In this document: positions 1,093-27,792 of the stretch, in pieces
How the letters are laid out: each line of letters opens with the position of its first letter
Numbering within the stretch: position 1 is the first letter of the stretch
Source: Pseudoxanthomonas mexicana
Lineage (GTDB): Bacteria; Pseudomonadota; Gammaproteobacteria; Xanthomonadales; Xanthomonadaceae
Length of the DNA stretch: 64,000 bases
Direction of reading: 5' to 3'
NCBI RefSeq assembly: GCF_010093385.1
Contig: NZ_PDWV01000005.1
Span: forward strand, 62,001 to 126,000
Made by a program: the position numbers and the translations under genes
Notes under the pieces: generated by a model
What the model was told of the DNA's origin: nothing
The model's input: only the letters and a program-made list of their open reading frames with translations
Database searches by the model: none

Positions 1093-1752
1093 TCAGCGCA
1101 CGCGGCGATAACGTACCTCGTTGTGGCGATCGCCCACCTGGGTGGTCACCAGGCCGTCGCGCGTCTGGTCGACGTCGAACACGGTGTTGCCCACGTTGAG
1201 GCGACCCTCGTTGATCCAGCCGTCGACGGTCTGGTCGCGCGTCCGCGCAGTGGCGCGGCCATCGGCATCGATGGTCAGGGTGACGTCGCGGTCATAGACC
1301 GCGTTGTAGCCCTCGAACCTGCCGACCATCCAGGACGGCACGTACGAGGAATGTCGCGCCCCCTGGTAGCGGTCGTCATCGTAGCGGTCGTCATGCTTGT
1401 TCGCGTTGTGCGCAATGGCGCCCAGGATGGCGGCGCCGATCAATACGCCTGCGGCGACCTTGGCGTCGTGGTCGTCGTGGTGTCCCGACGAACCGGTATG
1501 CACGCGGAACGTCGCACGGCAGCCGTCGTCCACCCAGATCTCGCGGCGGCTGTAGTCCCAGGTGCGGCCCTGCGTGCAGGACGCGCCGGACAGTGGCCGG
1601 TCGGGCGTGACGTAGCCGGCGGTCGCGATCGGACAACGCTGGGAGCGGTCGTTGCGGCTCTCGCAGGTGACGTAGTCGTCGGCGCGGGCGTCGGCACTCC
1701 ACAGGCCGGTACCGACGAGACAGACGGACAGCAGGATGCGCATGCGTTCCAT
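1093..1752 (-). CDS. DUF3011 secreted protein
   Basis: 219 residues with a signal peptide (residues 1-24, cleavage after ADARA) and an N-terminal DUF3011 domain marked by four cysteines: VTCESRN, QRCPIA, ASCTQGRTW and VDDGCRATF. A His/Asp-rich stretch (HHDDHD, HDDRYDDDRY) flanks a short glycine/alanine hydrophobic segment (AAGVLIGAAILGAIAH), and a beta-rich tail follows. The start at 1752 has AAGGA about seven bases upstream. DUF3011 proteins are common in Xanthomonadaceae and have no established function. The His/Asp-rich part could bind metal, but that is inference. It stands alone between a lipoprotein gene and cca. Confidence 0.7.
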   Translation of the reverse strand: MERMRILLSVCLVGTGLWSADARADDYVTCESRNDRSQRCPIATAGYVTPDRPLSGASCTQGRTWDYSRREIWVDDGCRATFRVHTGSSGHHDDHDAKVAAGVLIGAAILGAIAHNANKHDDRYDDDRYQGARHSSYVPSWMVGRFEGYNAVYDRDVTLTIDADGRATARTRDQTVDGWINEGRLNVGNTVFDVDQTRDGLVTTQVGDRHNEVRYRRVR

Positions 1753-1851
1753 GACGGGTCCTTCGCAGGGTGGCAGGGTGCGGCCTCCCCGGCCGCGTCG
1801 CCACCATACCTTCGGCGCGCGCTGAATGTGAGCCGAAATCGCGACCGTCCG

Positions 1852-3081
1852 TCAGCTGTCCGCTCGCCGTCGCTCCCGGACGGCGGCCACCCGGGCGGCC
1901 TGCAGCGCCTCACCGATCTGCACCCCCGTCATGCCTTCCCGCACCACATCGCGTGCGCTGACCTGCAGCGCGGCGCGGTGCAGGTCGACCAGGGCGCGCC
2001 CCTGGGGATAGTCGGCCGCCTCCTGGCCGCCACGACCGCGCTTGTCGGCCTCGCAGACCGTGGCCAGCCAAGGAATGCGTTCCGGCCGGCGGAACGCATC
2101 GCAGCGTGCGAGCAGTTCGGTCACGGTGGCATCGCGCAGCTCGAACAGGCGGTGCACGTTGAGGTGTTCCCGGCAGGCCATCACCGCCAGTTCGCGATGA
2201 TCGACCGGGACCTTGAGCCGCTCGCACAGCGCGATCACCGGCTTCACCCCGGCATGCTCGTGGCCGATGTGTTTCGGCAGCACGTCGGCCGGCGTCAAGG
2301 CCTTGCCCAGGTCATGCACCAGTGCGGCGAAGCCGATCCGCGCGTCGCCCGGCGCGAGCCGCGCCGCCATGTCGCAGACCATTTCCTGGTGGATGCCGGT
2401 ATCCACCTCCGGGTGGTATTCCGCGCGCTGGGGTATGCCGTACAGGGCATCCACTTCGGGCAGCACCACGGCCAGCGCACCGCAGTCGCGCAGCGTGGAC
2501 AGGAAGGCCGATGGCTGCGTGGACGCCAGTGCGCGCCGCAGTTCCTGCCATACGCGCTCGGGCACCAGCGCATCCAGTTCGCCGCTGTCGACCATCGTAC
2601 GCATCAGCGCCACCGTTTCCGGCGCGAGGGTGAAGCCCAACGGGGCGAACCGCGCCATGAAACGCGCGGCGCGCAACACCCGCAGGGGATCCTCGACGAA
2701 AGCCGGGCCCACATGACGGAGCACGCGAGCCTGGATGTCGCGCGCGCCGCCGTACGGATCGACGAGCGTGCCATCGTCGGCCTGCGCGATCGCATTGATC
2801 GTGAAGTCGCGCCGCTGCAGATCCTCTTCCAGCGTCACCGAAGGATCGGCATCGACGACGAAGCCACGATAGCCACGGCCGCTCTTGCGCTCGGTCCGCG
2901 CCAGTGCGTACTCCTCGCCGGTATCGGGATGCAGGAACACCGGGAAGTCGCGACCCACGGCCTTGAAGCCTCGCGCTTCCATCCCGGCCTGGGTGGCGCC
3001 GACCACCACCCAGTCGCGATCGCCGGGCGGCAGGCCCAGCAACCGGTCGCGTACCGCGCCGCCGACGAGATAGGTCTTCAT
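1852..3081 (-). CDS. cca: Multifunctional CCA tRNA nucleotidyltransferase
   Basis: 409 residues from [13 protein letters not shown]. The class II nucleotidyltransferase core is clear: GGAVRD loop, the catalytic carboxylates in GDRDWVVVG, and the [10 protein letters not shown] motif. A head/neck region with [10 protein letters not shown] follows, then a C-terminal HD domain ([11 protein letters not shown]) typical of the gamma- and betaproteobacterial form, which adds phosphatase and phosphodiesterase activity. It adds and repairs the 3' CCA end of tRNAs in the cytoplasm. An ATG ten codons upstream exists, but MKTYLVGG matches the family start. Length is normal for the bacterial HD-containing enzyme. 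Confidence 0.96.
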
Positions 3082-3127
3082 GCCGCCATGATGCCGGATC
3101 GGCAACATCACTGTCTGCGGTGAGCGG

Positions 3128-3190
3128 TTGTAGGAGCGTGGCCGCGAATCAGCACGACCTGCGCCATCGCGACTTACGCCGCTCCCACGG
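3128..3190. repeat. Imperfect TGTAGGAGCG-type palindrome
   Basis: A unit beginning TGTAGGAGCGTGGCCGCGA is followed by an inverted, diverged copy ending CGCCGCTCCCACGG. It lies between the starts/ends of cca and the transglycosylase gene. It shares its core with the perfect palindromes at 33701, 36459 and 44362, so it looks like a decayed member of the same dispersed family. Confidence 0.6.
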
Positions 3191-3205
3191 CAGGCATCGC
3201 CGGCC

Positions 3206-5164
3206 TCAGCTCTTCGGCATCTGCGCGGTGGGGCAGGTGAACGCTTTGCGCTTGGCCTGCACGCGCCCCATCATCCGGTCGCTCACCGGCAACGCATTGC
3301 CGTTGAGGCGCCAGTCGTAGATCACGCTGAAGGCCAGCACGCGCGCCACGTATTCGCGCGTTTCCTTGTAGCTGATCGTCTCGATCCAGAGGTCGGGATC
3401 GAAACCGGGGCGCTGCGACTGCCAGCGTGCCGTCGGTGCGGGCCCGGCGTTGTAGGCGGCGATGGCGACATAGGGCACGCCATACTTGCCCTCCATCTCG
3501 CGCAGGTAGGCCGTGCCGATGGCGATGTTGGTGTCCGCGTCGTACAGGCTGGACGCACCGGCATAGGGAATGCCCAGCCGCTTGGCCACGCCCGCGCCCG
3601 TGCCGGGCAGCACCTGCATCAGGCCCATCGCGTTCGCGCCCGAGCGGGCCTTCGGATTGAAGATGCTCTCGGCGCGGATCTCGGCGGCGACCCAGGCCGG
3701 GTCGATGGCATGCCGGGCCGCCTCGCGGCGGATGGTGTCGCCGTGGTGCAGCGGGAAGCGCAATTCGTACAGCCGCTGCTCCTCGGGCTGCCTGCCCAGC
3801 GAGAACACGGCGCGGTCGAACCAGCCGTTGTCGCGCGCCACCTCCACCGCGATCCGCCGCTGGGCATCGTTGAAGCGCGACAGCGCTTCGTTCCATTCCG
3901 TCGTGGCCCAGCCCGGGCGCTCCAGCTGCCACAGTTCCATCGCGCGCACGATGGCCGGATCGCGTGCCACCGCCTGCTTGGCGTCGGGCGGATCGCGGGG
4001 GATCCAGGCGCACAGCGCGTAGTCCTGCCCCAGCCGGTCGGCGGCGAGGAAGCCGTGGAAGGTGGGGCTGGTGGCGGCCTCGCGGAACAGGCGCTGCGCG
4101 CCGGTGCGATCACCGGTCTTCTCGCTCATGCGCGCCTCGAAGTAGCGCCAGCGCGAATCCGTACGCTGCGACGGTGGCATCTTCTGCAGCGCCGCGAGCG
4201 CCGCCGGCCAGTCGCCGCGGGACATCGCCTCGCGCACGCGCCATTCGTGCAGGCGCTCGTCGTAGGCCGATTCGGGCACGTTGCCGAGCCGGTGGGCGGA
4301 ATCCGGTCCGTACGAGGCGACGGTCCACAGCGCGATCTGGTACAGCACCTGGCCGCGCTCGGTGTCGCCCATGCCCAATGCATCCGCGTACTGCGGCAGC
4401 AGGCGTTCGGCAGTGTCCGGATCGGATTGCGCCAGCTTCGCCAGTCCATGGGCGGCCATGCGTCGGCTGCGGTCGGTCTTCGGCCAGTTCAGCGCGCGCG
4501 GATGGACGGCATCGATGAAGGCGGCGTAATCGTTGGCGAGCGCCGCTTCATCCGTCGGCAGGCCGCGTGCGGCGCTGCGCATGACTCCGGTCTGGCGCTC
4601 GGCGGCCGCGGCTTCGATGCGCTCCCACCGCAGCGCCGCTGGAAGGCCGCCCTGGGTGGCGAGCACGTTGAACACCGGGTCGCAGCCGTCGGGCAGCGAC
4701 TTGGCACCCTTGCGCCAGATCGCCTGCGCCTGTTCCGTCCATGCGGCATCGAGGCGTCCGGTGGCCTGGCGCGCCTGCAGGTGGGCGCACTGCAGGGCCA
4801 CGCTGTCGGTGGGCTGCCAGGCGGCGAGGAAGGTCGGCCAATCCTGGCGCCGGGCGAGGGCCGCCAGCCACAGGGTGCGGAACTGGGCGGCCACCGCCTG
4901 GCCGTCGTGGCGGCGCAGGAAGTCCCTGGCCTGCGCGCTCGTCACGACATCAGGGTCGTGGCGCAGCGCCGCGAACTCCAGCCAGCCGGACAGGGGATGG
5001 CGCGCCAGTGCGGCCGAGCTGGCGGGTTCAAGGCGACCCGCTTCGGCGTTGGCGAGCGCAGTGCGGAATGCGGGGCGCTGGGCCTCGAGCGATTGCGCGT
5101 GAGCGCGTACGGACAGGCACAGGGCGGTGGCGGCAGCGAGTACGATGAGGGGAATGCGGACCAT
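3206..5164 (-). CDS. slt: Soluble lytic murein transglycosylase
   Basis: 652 residues starting [16 protein letters not shown], with a cleavable signal peptide (after AHAQ). A long alpha-helical superhelical region (residues ~25-460) is followed by a C-terminal SLT/goose-lysozyme domain. The catalytic Glu is in [16 protein letters not shown]; the conserved GLMQVLP and AYNAGP motifs follow. The family cleaves the MurNAc-GlcNAc bond of peptidoglycan to 1,6-anhydro products in the periplasm. The open frame extends upstream to 5323, but the start at 5164 directly precedes the signal peptide. Its start is 62 bases from that of the divergent TauE-type gene. Confidence 0.94.
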
Positions 5165-20264: not shown

Positions 20265-21083
20265 ATGACAGTTACATTGCTGCCGCAGCTCGCGCCCGAG
20301 GCCTTCGACATGCCGGACGCCGACAAGCTCGCGATCGCCGGTTCGGAGCACCCGCCGCGCATCCTCATTCTGTACGGCTCGCTGCGCCCGCAATCCTTCA
20401 GCCGAAAACTGGCCCTGGAGGCCGAGCGTCTGCTGCAGCAGTTCGGTGCGGAGACGCGCGTGTTCCATCCGCACGACCTGCCCATCCTGGACAGCGTGGG
20501 TGCGGACCATCCGGAGGTGCAGCGGCTGCGCGCGTGGTCGCAGTGGTCCGAGGGCCAGGTCTGGGTCAGTCCGGAACGCCACGGCACCCTGTCGGCGGTG
20601 TTCAAGAACCAGATCGACTGGCTGCCGCTGTCCGAGGGCAGCGTGCGCCCCACCCAGGGCCGCACACTGGCGGTCATGCAGGTGTGCGGCGGCTCGCAGT
20701 CGTTCAACGTGGTCAATGCGTTGCGCGTGCTGGGTCGATGGATGCGCATGGTCACCATCCCCAACCAGTCGTCGGTGCCGAAGGCCTGGCAGGAATTCGA
20801 TGAAGCAGGCCGCATGAAACCCTCGCCCTACTACGACCGCGTGGTGGACGTGATGGAGGAACTGGTGAAGTTCACCCTGCTGGTGCGCGACCGCAGCGAC
20901 TACCTGACCAGCCGCTACAGCGAACGCAAGGGCGACCTGGCGGCCCGCGCCGTGACAGCCGCGTCCGGCGTGGCTGAAGAGACCGCACCTGTAGCGACCC
21001 CGCTTGCCGAAGCGCGTCAGGAAGAGGTCGCCGCCGTACCGGCCAGTCCCTGCTGCGGTCCCGCCTGCTGCGCCACCACGTAG
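20265..21083 (+). CDS. arsH: Arsenical resistance flavoprotein ArsH with cysteine-rich tail
   Basis: 272 residues. The NADPH-dependent FMN reductase fold shows [15 protein letters not shown] (FMN phosphate binding), [19 protein letters not shown] and [11 protein letters not shown]. ArsH oxidises trivalent organoarsenicals such as methylarsenite to less toxic pentavalent forms. The core ends near residue 235; an Ala/Glu-rich tail follows, ending [12 protein letters not shown] with vicinal cysteine pairs Cys263-264 and Cys268-269. That tail is longer and more cysteine-rich than the typical ArsH and could bind As(III). Divergent from arsR and probably controlled by the same operator. Confidence 0.92.
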
Positions 21084-21125
21084 CGATAGCCGGACGGGCG
21101 GGGCTTCATGTGCGGGGGTGAGTGA

Positions 21126-22562
<1,437 letters not shown>

Positions 22563-22563
22563 G

Positions 22564-22914
22564 ATGACCATGTCCTTTGAAAAGTCCCCCTTTGACGCGA
22601 CGCCTGACGCAGCGATGGAGGGCGGCGCCCTCGACCAGGAAGCCCGCGATGCGATTGCGCGACTGGGTGAACACGACCTGCTGAAGATCGATCAGGCGAT
22701 CCTGTCTTCGCTGGGTCGTGAGTGGAAGAAGGCGGGTTTCATCACCGCAGGCGTCATGATTGCCGCCCCGGACGAATACGAGGATCTGCCGGAGATGTTC
22801 TACGCATCCCGGATCCGGCTGCTTGCCGAGGCATCGCGCATCGAGACGAAAGGCGATGCGCGTGCATTGAAGACCTTCGAGATCCGTCTACCGCCCGCAA
22901 CGGGAGTTGCCTGA
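22564..22914 (+). CDS. Small unknown protein inside the formaldehyde operon
   Basis: 116 residues with no recognised family. It is acidic, begins [15 protein letters not shown], and has a helical middle ([22 protein letters not shown]) followed by [37 protein letters not shown] and a short beta-like end. No signal peptide, cysteine or membrane segment. It starts one base after the frmA stop and ends one base before fghA, so it is tightly cotranscribed and coupled with both. The position argues for a role in formaldehyde detoxification, perhaps regulatory or as a small accessory subunit, but no function can be read from the sequence. Confidence 0.8.
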
Positions 22915-22915
22915 C

Positions 22916-23752
22916 ATGACGAGCGAGCGCATCGAACACCGTGCCTGCTTCGGCGGCTGGCAGGACGTCTACCGCCATCGCTCCGAGGTGCTCGGCTGCG
23001 ACATGACGGTGGGCGTCTACCTGCCGCCGCAGGTCGAACAGGGACCGTGCCCGGTGCTTTACTGGCTCAGCGGCCTGACCTGCACCGAACAGAACTTCAT
23101 CACCAAGGCCGGGGCGCAACGCTACGCGGCCGAACACGGGATCATCCTCGTCGCACCGGATACCAGTCCGCGCGGCGAGGACGTGGCCGACGCCGAGGGG
23201 TACGACCTCGGCAAGGGTGCGGGCTTCTACGTCAACGCGACGCAGGTGCCGTGGGCATCGCACTACCGCATGTACGACTACATCGTCGACGAGTTGCCGG
23301 CCTGGGTCGAGGCCGATCCGATGGCAAGCGACCGGCGCGCGATCAGCGGGCATTCGATGGGCGGCCACGGCGCACTGACCATCGCGCTGAAGAACCCCGG
23401 GCGCTACCGCAGCGTGTCCGCGTTCTCGCCGATCGTCGCGCCGACGCAGGTGCCGTGGGGGCAGAAGGCGGTCGCGGCCTATCTGGGCGACGATCGCGAG
23501 GCATGGAAGGCCTGGGACACGGTCGAGCTGATCAGGCAGGCACGCGAGCAGCTGCCGCTGCTCGTCGATCAAGGCGATGCGGACGAGTTCCTGCAGGGCC
23601 AGCTGAAGCCGGAACTGCTGCAGGCTGCCGCTGCCGAGGCGGGCCACCCGCTGACCCTGCGCCTGCAGCCGGGCTACGACCACAGCTACTACTTCATCGC
23701 CAGCTTCATCGGCGACCACATCGCGCACCACGCCGCGGCATTGAAGGCCTAG
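22916..23752 (+). CDS. fghA: S-formylglutathione hydrolase
   Basis: 278 residues, esterase D family alpha/beta hydrolase. The nucleophile Ser147 is in [11 protein letters not shown]; the rest of the triad is likely the Asp in VDQGDADEF and the His in [24 protein letters not shown] is the conserved family block with the oxyanion region. It hydrolyses S-formylglutathione to formate and glutathione, completing the pathway begun by FrmA. Last gene of the frm operon; a UUCG-loop hairpin begins right after its stop. Confidence 0.96.
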
Positions 23753-24894: not shown

Positions 24895-25842
24895 TTATGT
24901 CGCCTTGAACGGTGCGGGCGGCGCGGCGAAGGCGGCCACGACGGCGCCCTTTCCCACGTTGACCATGCCGGTGAGGCTCATGACGCTTTCGAACACCTCC
25001 ACCTTGTTGTTCTCGCAGATGTCGCGCAGGCGCTGGTAGCCGGGCAGGGCGCGCATTTCCGACAGTTCGCCGCCGTAGCTCAGGCAGACGGTGGGCGTCA
25101 TCAGGCCGGCCATCACCCGGTTGCCGGTGAACTTGAACATCTGTTCCACCGCATTCTCGAAACCCTTGATCTTGGCCACCGGCTCGGTGTTGCCGGCATG
25201 GCCGTACAGCACCGGCTTGATGTCCAGCGCGCTGCCCAGCGCCGCGCTCAGCAGGCCCACGCTGCGGTCGCCCTTGGTGCGGGCGCGGTTGCGCAGGTAG
25301 TACAGGTCGCGCGGGATCATGTAGCCGTGCGTGTTCTGCGCCAGTTCTTCCAGCCGCACGCGGATCTGCTGCACGCTGGCACCGGCGTCGCGCATGCGCA
25401 CGGCTTCCACCGCCGTGATGCCCTGCGCGGCGAACAGGTTCTGGGTGTCGATCACGCGCAGCGCGAACGGCGAGTTGTGGCCTGCGGCCTGCCGCACCGG
25501 CTTGTAATCGTTGAGGATCGCGAAGCTGGCCTGCATCGCGTTGTCGTGGATCGGCGAACGCGTCTTGGTGATCGTCATGCAGAACACGTGGTCGTAATCG
25601 ATCACCAGCCGGCCCAGGAACAGGTCGCGGATCTGGTTGACCGTGAACGGCGTGGTCTCGGCCTCGTGGCCGCGCTCGGCCACGTGCGCATGCAGGAAGC
25701 TAAGCGTGGCCTGCTCGTCGCGATGGTCGGCCAGCACGGCTTCGCCGATGCGCACCGTGATGGGCAGGATGACGATGTTGTTCCGTTCCAGGTACTCCAG
25801 CGGCAGATCGCACGCAGAGTCGACGACTATCCCAATGCGCAT
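24895..25842 (-). CDS. DegV family fatty-acid-binding protein
   Basis: 315 residues starting MRIGIVVDSACDLPLEYLE, the typical DegV N-terminal strand with the Ser/Asp pair. The first domain continues with TTPFTVNQIRDLF and FCMTITKTRSPIHDNAM, and a second domain includes KPVLYGHAGNTEPVAKIKGFENAVEQM. In Firmicutes, DegV proteins (FakB) bind a fatty acid for phosphorylation by FakA; in this lineage the partner is not known. The gene shares a 267-base divergent region, with two CRP-type sites, with the diguanylate cyclase. Confidence 0.85.
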   Translation of the reverse strand: MRIGIVVDSACDLPLEYLERNNIVILPITVRIGEAVLADHRDEQATLSFLHAHVAERGHEAETTPFTVNQIRDLFLGRLVIDYDHVFCMTITKTRSPIHDNAMQASFAILNDYKPVRQAAGHNSPFALRVIDTQNLFAAQGITAVEAVRMRDAGASVQQIRVRLEELAQNTHGYMIPRDLYYLRNRARTKGDRSVGLLSAALGSALDIKPVLYGHAGNTEPVAKIKGFENAVEQMFKFTGNRVMAGLMTPTVCLSYGGELSEMRALPGYQRLRDICENNKVEVFESVMSLTGMVNVGKGAVVAAFAAPPAPFKAT

Positions 25843-25932
25843 CTCAGCCCCTCCCGGCATCCGTCGCATTTGTGCTTATCTCCGCAAAACTAGCGGACAA
25901 CGGTGGGCAAGTCGTCGCGTAAACGCATGAAG

Positions 25933-25948
25933 TGTGATTTGCGTCACT
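25933..25948. promoter_or_regulatory. CRP/Clp-type binding site 1
   Basis: TGTGATTTGCGTCACT matches TGTGA-N6-TCACA at nine of ten positions, and the dyad extends outward (AAG left, CTT right). It lies 91 bases upstream of the degV start and 170 bases upstream of the cyclase start. In Xanthomonas the CRP homologue Clp recognises this same motif. Confidence 0.65.
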
Positions 25949-26024
25949 TTTTCCGGGGTGGGCGCGCGAAGCCGGAAACCCAGCCTCCATCCCGTTCCGG
26001 AGCAGGCTTGCGCCCCACTATTCA

Positions 26025-26040
26025 TGTGACGAATGTCACA
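26025..26040. promoter_or_regulatory. CRP/Clp-type binding site 2 (perfect consensus)
   Basis: TGTGACGAATGTCACA is an exact TGTGA-N6-TCACA. Its centre lies 92 bases from that of site 1, close to nine helical turns, and about 77 bases before the diguanylate cyclase start. In Xanthomonas, Clp binds DNA only when free of c-di-GMP, so a link to cyclic-di-GMP level is plausible. Confidence 0.7.
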
Positions 26041-26109
26041 AATACGATGCGCGCCGGCTTGTCCAGGGCCCGGCCGCGCCGGACACTCGCAACGAACGCA
26101 TGGGACAAC

Positions 26110-27792
26110 ATGAAACAGGGGCGGTGGATACTGCTGCTGCTTCTGGCCCTGCTGATGGCGGAGGGTGTGCGGGGGGAAAACATCGCGCGCATCGACCGCA
26201 TCCAGCCGCAAGCGCTGGAACAGCAGGCGGGACAGCGCGCCGGATTGTTCTCGGAACGCCGCTTCGAAAGCGGTGGCGCGTCCATGCGCGTGATCGGCAA
26301 CGGGGCGTGGCGCATCACGCCACGCCCGGGCGTACGCGAACCGCTGCTGGTGTTCTACCACCCGTATACGGCGCGGATCAGCGTGCAGGCGCCGCCGGGC
26401 GCCGCCGTGCGACGCCAGGACATCTTCAGCCCCGATCTTGACCCGCGCTACAGCCGGCGGGCGCTGGTGTTCCCGCTGAGTGGCGACGGGCCGGTCCATG
26501 TGAAGGTGGAGGGCGCGCGCTATCCCCTGCGGGTGGCCGTGGAGCCGGGGCGTGCCTATGCGGCGGCCGACCTGTGGCATGTGCGTCTGGTGCTGCCGGC
26601 GGTCGGCGTGGTGCTGGGCGTATCGCTGGCGGTGCTGCTGTTCTGGGCCATGCTGCGCGACCGCGTCTACCTGCTGTACGCGGGCGCGATGCTGTTCCAG
26701 CTGCTGTATGCCCTGTGCTCGTACGGCGAGGCCTACGCATGGCCGGGCCTCTCGAGGCTGGCGCGGTTCGGTGCCCAGGGCATCTGGGCCGTCGGGACGC
26801 GGGCCCCCATCCTGCTGGTGTACCTGTGGCTGGACTACGCCGGCCTGCGCAAGGTGACGCCGCGGCTGGCGGCCGCCGTACGTGTCGTCGGCGCCTATGG
26901 CTGCGGCCTGACGCTGGTGTTGCTGGGCTCCCCCTGGCCGGCCGACAAGGCGTGGTTTCCCGACATCGCCAACGCCCTGTTCCTGCTCACCAACGCGATC
27001 GCGCTGGTGACGCTGGTGGTGGCCTGGCGCCGCGGCCAGCGGCACGCCGCCTACGTCCTGATCGCATGGGTGCCGCTGCTGGCCTTCACCATGGCGCGCG
27101 CGCTGCGCTTCAGTGTGGGCGAACGCGCCGAGCCGTGGCTGGAGTACGGCCTGCCGTGGGTGCAGGCGTTCACCGCGGTGGGGCTGGCGCTGGGCCTGGC
27201 CGACCGCATGCTGACCTTCCGGCGCGAACGCGACCGTGCCAAGGCCCATGCCGAGCGCGACGGCCTGACCGGCGTACTGAACCGCGGCGGCATCGAGCAC
27301 CGGCTCGACTGGGCGCTGATCGAGCGCGAGCGCGAACGCATGCCGGTGTCGCTGCTGTTCATCGACCTGGACAACTTCAAGCAGATCAACGACCGCCACG
27401 GCCATGCGCTCGGCGACGCCTGCCTGCGCGCGGTGACGCGCGCGGTGAGCGAGCAGTTCCAGTACGGCGACCAGCTGGGTCGGCTGGGTGGCGAGGAGTT
27501 CGTCCTGGTGCTTTCCGGCGTCGAACTGCCGGCCGCACTGCGCATCGCCGAGCAGGTGGGCGCGCGTATCCGGCGGGATTGCGCCAACGTGGAAGGCGTG
27601 GCGGTCGCCGTCACCGCCAGCATCGGCGCCGCACAGGCGCGCGACGGGGATTCGGTAGCGTCCCTGATCGCGCGCGCGGACCAGGCCATGTATGCGGCCA
27701 AGCGCGCCGGCGGCGACCGCGTGATGGCGGAAGACGCTCCGGAGCGCGTCCCGGAAAGCACGGAGGCGCCCGAAGGCGCCTCCGTGGACTGA
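26110..27792 (+). CDS. Membrane diguanylate cyclase with 7TM sensor (7TMR-DISM/GGDEF)
   Basis: 560 residues: signal peptide (1-22, ending VRGE), periplasmic beta-rich sensor region (~25-155), seven hydrophobic helices (~160-365), a short linker (RRERDRAKAHAERDGLTGVLNR), and a GGDEF domain with active site GGEEF at 460-464. It should make c-di-GMP from GTP, controlled by an extracytoplasmic ligand. The inhibitory RxxD motif upstream of the active site reads QYGD (Gln451 replaces Arg), so classical product inhibition is probably lost. Two CRP-type sites lie upstream. An open reading extension to 25903 runs through these sites and is unlikely. Confidence 0.88.
   Translation: MKQGRWILLLLLALLMAEGVRGENIARIDRIQPQALEQQAGQRAGLFSERRFESGGASMRVIGNGAWRITPRPGVREPLLVFYHPYTARISVQAPPGAAVRRQDIFSPDLDPRYSRRALVFPLSGDGPVHVKVEGARYPLRVAVEPGRAYAAADLWHVRLVLPAVGVVLGVSLAVLLFWAMLRDRVYLLYAGAMLFQLLYALCSYGEAYAWPGLSRLARFGAQGIWAVGTRAPILLVYLWLDYAGLRKVTPRLAAAVRVVGAYGCGLTLVLLGSPWPADKAWFPDIANALFLLTNAIALVTLVVAWRRGQRHAAYVLIAWVPLLAFTMARALRFSVGERAEPWLEYGLPWVQAFTAVGLALGLADRMLTFRRERDRAKAHAERDGLTGVLNRGGIEHRLDWALIERERERMPVSLLFIDLDNFKQINDRHGHALGDACLRAVTRAVSEQFQYGDQLGRLGGEEFVLVLSGVELPAALRIAEQVGARIRRDCANVEGVAVAVTASIGAAQARDGDSVASLIARADQAMYAAKRAGGDRVMAEDAPERVPESTEAPEGASVD
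27761..27784. terminator. Hairpin overlapping the 3' end of the cyclase gene
   Basis: CGGAGGCGCC and GGCGCCTCCG form a perfect 10-bp stem with a CGAA loop (UUCG-type on the other strand). It lies in the last codons of the cyclase, before the convergent amidohydrolase gene ending at 27804. There is no T-run, so terminator function is only likely. Confidence 0.4.

Follow-up and report, generated by a model that had tools for sequence, protein, structure and literature searches.

Two divergent genes are separated by a 267-bp intergenic gap in a 64,000-nt stretch of Pseudoxanthomonas mexicana contig C71, referred to here as the window (the assembly comprises 3,965,100 bases in 115 contigs). On the plus strand, the gap is followed by a predicted membrane diguanylate cyclase gene (26110–27792; 7TMR-DISM_7TM, E 1.3e-15; GGDEF, E 1.3e-38), with its ATG at 26110. 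On the minus strand, with its ATG at 25842, lies a gene for a 315-residue DegV family protein (24895–25842; Pfam DegV, E 2e-58; TIGR00762 above cut-off). The gap contains two putative Clp/CRP-type binding sites. Site 1 (25933–25948, TGTGATTTGCGTCACT) has one mismatch to TGTGA-N6-TCACA and is centered at 25940.5, position −60.5 of the predicted DegV start; site 2 (26025–26040, TGTGACGAATGTCACA) matches exactly and is centered at 26032.5, position −61.5 of the predicted cyclase start. A preliminary description of this DNA had reported motifs at 25933 and 26025, the latter exact, with centers 92 bp apart, and all of these observations are reproduced here.

The cyclase carries the signature GGEEF, expected of an active enzyme, at residue 460, and the signature is retained in every same-genus ortholog with an alignment that reaches it (the alignment of L045 stopped short). 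The canonical RxxD inhibitory motif is replaced by QYGD. Thirty-two further GGDEF domains were fetched from the genome; four had an unreadable signature, and among the remaining 28, RxxD occurs in 16. This inhibitory site is not required for cyclase activity. A 612-residue protein encoded elsewhere (L174, contig C27, locus 1369–3207) carries a Dak2 domain at its N-terminus, and what follows looks DegV-like by eye; the protein may be a FakA-like partner that includes a DegV part of its own. Within the window, at about 21000–23750, frames for an FrmR-like regulator, a glutathione-dependent formaldehyde dehydrogenase and an S-formylglutathione hydrolase stand in a row and read by eye as a formaldehyde detoxification cluster. 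Rfam at gathering scores gave no match in the 64-kb window, and a search of a plasmid collection (near mode) gave no match to the region.

Conservation of the two sites

A genome scan with the Clp motif, the check proposed in the preliminary description, identifies a single exact copy of TGTGA-N6-TCACA, which is site 2, compared with none for the reversed control. Allowing one mismatch yields 18 places versus five for the reversed control, and two of the 18 lie in the DegV/cyclase gap. This excess of near-exact sites makes a Clp regulon in this genome likely. Two-mismatch matches in the window number 10 against 16 expected; loose matches thus carry no weight.

Comparisons among related genomes provide stronger evidence. 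A cyclase ortholog (52–100% identity) is present in 24 of 37 same-genus genomes, P. mexicana included, and DegV is its divergent neighbor at all 24 loci. This set excludes the paralogs L047–L052 (33–36% identity), and L085, a 31% match covering residues 276–539 only, was not counted among cyclase neighbors. First, at least one site with no more than one mismatch occurs in 22 of the 24 orthologous gaps (0.54% of shuffles), an exact site in 16 (0.008%), and two sites with no more than one mismatch each in 12 (0.008%); these frequencies derive from 12,000 dinucleotide shuffles of the 24 gaps and concern related genomes, which are not independent trials. Second, the cyclase-side site 2 is recognizable with at most one mismatch at 22 of the 24 loci; it is absent from L043 and L045, although both genomes have Clp. 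Site 1 is more variable, with at most two mismatches at 21 loci, at most one at 12, and no match even at two mismatches at three; the 14 closest loci retain both sites together. Third, a within-site comparison was added because the genomes are related. For site 2, pairwise identity over the 22 loci is 0.95 in the core versus 0.31 in the N6 segment. At the 14 closest loci, identity over the ten core bases is 0.91 for site 1 and 0.96 for site 2, compared with 0.43 and 0.33 over the six central bases and 0.49 for the inter-site DNA. Fifteen different central hexamers occur among the exact sites. That the core is conserved while the central hexamer and the inter-site DNA are not indicates that selection acts on a binding site made of two halves. 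Judged from sequence comparison, the sites are a real and well-conserved regulatory feature rather than chance occurrences.

A second cyclase gene may also be a target. The genome contains 33 GGDEF domains, and two of them have a near-exact site upstream on their own strand at a distance of no more than 3 kb; the view that the cyclase beside DegV is the sole GGDEF gene near such a site is therefore rejected. The second near-exact site (L207 3909–3924; C40:9000–13400) has one mismatch and is found directly behind a TATAAT box, 42 bases before the ATG of a gene coding for FecR and LysM domains. The GGDEF gene, 2.8 kb behind this site, codes for a CHASE2-GGDEF protein (Pfam E 2.3e-49 and 1.6e-44), and its frame follows, and as listed overlaps, the FecR/LysM-domain gene. 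This site is less well conserved than those in the DegV/cyclase gap. Among 21 same-genus loci with readable start regions (P. mexicana included; L227, without the N-terminal part, excluded), no more than one mismatch is seen in two, while 17 read TATAATTGTGA, a TATAAT box plus one half-site, the second half-site being mostly not conserved. A protein bound behind TATAAT would be predicted to block transcription rather than activate it, and we regard the FecR/CHASE2-GGDEF site as a lead to a possible second target. Other one-mismatch Clp-type sites include one in the gap that separates a MalK-type ABC ATPase gene from a divergent glucokinase gene (L013, C51:1332–1347), a pair that is possibly Clp-controlled, and one that overlaps the beginning of the mraZ frame (L012, C49:59336–59351), where the match may be due to chance. 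Gene calls around these other Clp sites are rough and were kept out of the counts.

Promoter geometry and history of the locus

The predicted cyclase core promoter (26059–26087, plus strand) consists of TTGTCC at 26059–26064, a 17-base spacer, and GACACT at 26082–26087, with a start at about 26094. Across 22 loci, pairwise identity is 1.00 for CTTG and 0.96 for GACACT, and TTG-N20-GACACT occurs once in the window when both strands are searched. A sigma-70 consensus scan found neither this promoter nor that of DegV and was uninformative; each of the two −10 boxes matches sigma-70 poorly. With GACACT taken as the −10 element and the start predicted from it, site 2 is centered at −61.5 at 18 of the 24 loci, at −62.5 at three and at −63.5 at one, with no site at the remaining two. 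Position −61.5 is the classical class I activating position of Escherichia coli CRP. The predicted −35, −10 and start are clear of both sites. The predicted geometry gives good support to class I activation of the cyclase promoter by Clp.

On the DegV side, the candidate −10 element is TAGTTT (25887–25892, minus strand), which would place the start at about 25880. A loose TANNNT-type hexamer on the minus strand is matched at this place at 23 of the 24 aligned loci. Relative to this loosely guessed −10, site 1 is centered at −60.5 at 14 of the 24 loci, at −59.5 at three and at −52.5 at four, with none at three. Activation of DegV from site 1 is a reasonable proposal; assignment of site 1 to DegV is the weaker half of the scheme, and its basis is position. 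Of the 13 same-genus genomes outside the ortholog set, 11 gave a DegV match (G009 and G034 did not), and only two of these 11 loci without an adjacent cyclase (L072 and L170) have a two-mismatch sequence left at the place of site 1. Since site 1 tracks the presence of the cyclase, it might serve the cyclase. The 14 closest loci also share the sequence TAAACGC (25920–25926), located between the DegV −10 and site 1. This sequence does not suit a −35 element in the position expected for one, and another regulator may bind there.

The history of this arrangement was followed in the upstream regions of 70 family DegV genes (30 among the matches listed and 40 picked for genus spread). At seven loci in other genera, a cyclase relative of 41–54% identity lies near DegV. 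The two genes are directly divergent at L103 and L114, and coding sequence lies between them at the other five (L105, L109, L118, L135 and L136). At L105, L135 and L136 the frame between reads by eye as a DsbA-fold isomerase; had such an intervening frame been lost, DegV and the cyclase would have been left as divergent neighbors in Pseudoxanthomonas. The promoter TTGNNN-N17-GACACT, or its GAGACT variant, is retained at six of the seven loci. At five of them nothing Clp-like lies up to 130 bp from the −10 (best candidates, 4–5 mismatches), and the sixth, L103, has a one-mismatch site at −65.5. This distribution suggests that the core promoter predates the Clp site, and at the five loci the promoter may operate without Clp. 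Retention of GACACT where no Clp site is present also means that GACACT alone is no sign of Clp dependence.

An older, family-wide Clp site is disfavored: in a set of 61 DegV upstream regions from other genera, drawn from the listed matches and partly picked for genus spread, only three contain a match with at most one mismatch 56–140 bp upstream. Several other-genus loci among L078–L099 share a TGTGAA-NNN-TATC-like sequence about 28–39 bp upstream of DegV. This sequence is 1–2 mismatches from the Clp motif, overlaps the likely DegV −10, and differs in place from site 1. Losing RxxD and acquiring the Clp site do not go strictly together, as L114 has QYGD without a site and L103 has RLGD with one.

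The candidate regulator and its ligand

CRP-type regulators were listed by PF13545 alone, which gives seven matches in the genome, three of them strong. One of the three is a Clp homolog encoded at the end of contig C27 (L018; contig end 205003), with approximately the first 21 codons cut off. It matches the Clp of Xanthomonas campestris pv. campestris (PDB 3iwz; E 7.2e-120, chain residues 23–230) and has a CRP-type recognition helix, GCSREMAGRV. For the remaining two strong matches, FNR or FnrL is the best-scoring model, below cut-off, and the helix is of the form E-x-x-S-R. Nine Clp residues are listed for c-di-GMP or promoter binding in the available text of PMC6637768, and the P. mexicana homolog has all nine (D70, E99, R150, R154, D162, V165, R166, D170 and R195). 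The five c-di-GMP residues (D70, E99, R154, R166 and D170) are complete in this protein and in 18 of 23 genus homologs. All nine residues are found in 12 of the 23, with E at position 70 in five and I at position 165 in six; a Clp match at cut-off was obtained in 23 of the 24 genomes, the exception being G012. The presence of the nine residues is no proof of ligand specificity, and NCBIfam labels the homolog a CRP equivalog.

A cAMP-driven CRP is disfavored as the regulator. Neither class III (PF00211) nor class I (PF01295) adenylate cyclases were found in the genome, with positive controls in named genomes (class III in five of 14, class I in one of 14); cAMP is thus an unlikely ligand. The preliminary description had linked the motifs to Clp by analogy with Xanthomonas. 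That link holds up at the level of sequence: among the three strong regulators, the one with the CRP-type helix is a close Clp homolog carrying the reported c-di-GMP residues, and the assignment of Clp as the regulator of the two sites is a strong one.

A proposed feedback circuit and its relation to known systems

It is likely, on the basis of conservation and geometry, that the gap holds back-to-back promoters, each activated by Clp from a class I site, with negative feedback on the cyclase. In this circuit, ligand-free Clp would bind site 2, contact RNA polymerase from −61.5 and activate TTGTCC-N17-GACACT, and Clp at site 1 would likewise activate DegV from about −60. The available text of three reports describes release of Clp by c-di-GMP from Xanthomonas and Lysobacter promoters (PMC6637768, PMC3528676, PMC7577485). 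As c-di-GMP rises, Clp would leave the DNA and cyclase transcription would fall, such that the enzyme limits its own supply, and DegV would be co-regulated with the cyclase with the same sign. The steps that we infer are binding, activation, release by c-di-GMP, arrival of the cyclase product at Clp, and the loop itself. Functional-looking sites, a Clp homolog with the c-di-GMP residues, and the GGEEF signature make the feedback loop plausible. Its sign, which was absent from the preliminary description, is suggested by the −61.5 geometry: Clp would activate and the product would release Clp, which makes the feedback negative.

The most serious alternative is that Clp activates these promoters but c-di-GMP made by the membrane cyclase never reaches it, in which case there is no feedback and the genes are simply members of the Clp regulon. 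The 33 GGDEF domains in the same cell are compatible with such a separation, and local c-di-GMP signaling with Clp has been proposed in Lysobacter, according to the available text of PMC9758175. However, changes in cellular c-di-GMP accompany changes in Clp targets in X. campestris (PMC3528676, as far as its available text goes), and we consider a complete absence of feedback unlikely.

Alternatively, Clp may bind both sites as a repressor of one or both genes; c-di-GMP would then raise cyclase expression, and the circuit would be a positive-feedback switch. There are precedents in the portions of the literature available: Clp represses xagA in X. campestris (PMC3528676), MrpC represses the cyclase gene dmxB (PMC8844925), and CRP represses gcsA and cdgA (PMC11139211). 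The same genome also has the near-exact site directly behind TATAAT ahead of another cyclase. The predicted −35, −10 and start at the DegV/cyclase gap are nonetheless free of both sites, and site 2 holds the standard activating place at 18 of 24 loci, which renders repression from these sites quite unlikely.

The two sites could also act jointly on one promoter, through looping or cooperative binding. The pair is retained at the 14 closest loci, site 1 is mostly missing where the cyclase is missing, and the Lysobacter HSAF promoter has two Clp sites (available text of PMC7577485). The spacing between the sites, however, is 89–92 bp (92, 91, 90 and 89) in the close group and 83, 119, 134 and 142 bp elsewhere, values that do not follow helical steps, while the distance of each site to its own promoter is nearly fixed at most loci. 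The near-integral helical spacing claimed in the preliminary description is incorrect, since 92/10.5 corresponds to 8.8 turns, and the whole-turn spacing expected of a loop was not found among the loci. The looping suggested there is likewise not supported, as the spacing drifts between 83 and 142 bp and each site holds the distance to its own −10 at most loci. Joint action on a single promoter is accordingly improbable.

Finally, it is barely tenable that the motifs are chance matches or the site of another palindrome-binding regulator: a genome of this size would be expected from base composition to contain about one exact match (a rough estimate) and two-mismatch matches in the window are fewer than expected, but conservation confined to the core, the fixed position and the shuffle test oppose chance, and the matching helix among the strong CRP-type regulators belongs to Clp.

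If activation by Clp with negative feedback is the correct reading, a c-di-GMP-inhibited activator placed on a cyclase promoter would constitute a compact homeostat, and it would show how the messenger itself singles out one or two of approximately 30 GGDEF proteins. Clp feedback could take the place of the lost product inhibition in the QYGD enzyme. A broader evolutionary scenario is put forward tentatively and is possible rather than probable: Pseudoxanthomonas may have gained a Clp site at −61.5 on an old promoter, yielding a Clp-dependent cyclase limited by its product, with gene-level inhibition replacing enzyme-level inhibition and the whole acting as a set-point controller for the Clp regulon. 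Should this be true, and should the site behind the TATAAT of the FecR/CHASE2-GGDEF operon be bound, the cell would possess paired negative and positive loops, one cyclase being activated and another repressed. With its core promoter common to several genera and the Clp site largely restricted to one, the locus would also offer the study of network evolution a clear-cut example of a regulatory site gained (or lost repeatedly).

A literature search returned no report of Clp controlling a cyclase promoter in Pseudoxanthomonas, a weak absence given that subscription journals are mostly outside its coverage. The geometry resembles that of class I CRP promoters of E. coli, of the lac type, in which a single site stands at −61.5, the same place as site 2. 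The AR1-like loop reads AMSHPQGTQ in Clp, against AMTHPDGMQ in Vfr in the same alignment. Unlike in E. coli CRP, no cAMP is expected to be involved here, and class I contact by Clp is predicted.

Cyclase genes under the control of CRP-family regulators, as proposed here, have precedents in gcsA and cdgA of Vibrio cholerae and dmxB of Myxococcus xanthus (PMC11139211, PMC8844925). In the available text of these reports, however, all three genes are repressed, CRP acts with cAMP, and the regulator is not described as product-inhibited, whereas activation is expected at the P. mexicana promoter. The HSAF operon of Lysobacter enzymogenes, with sites PA and PB, is closer to the proposal in that Clp activates and c-di-GMP lowers binding to PA (PMC7577485). 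It differs in that Clp is controlled through the phosphodiesterase LchP and through protein contacts; a transcriptional loop through a cyclase is not among the features described in the available text. Two Clp sites per promoter are also reported for X. campestris engXCA in the available text of PMC6430473. The X. campestris Clp regulon (engXCA, manA, xagA), as far as the available sources describe it, targets extracellular-enzyme and xag genes. In P. mexicana, by contrast, the predicted target is a cyclase that would make Clp’s own ligand, and each site appears to be tied to its own divergent promoter.
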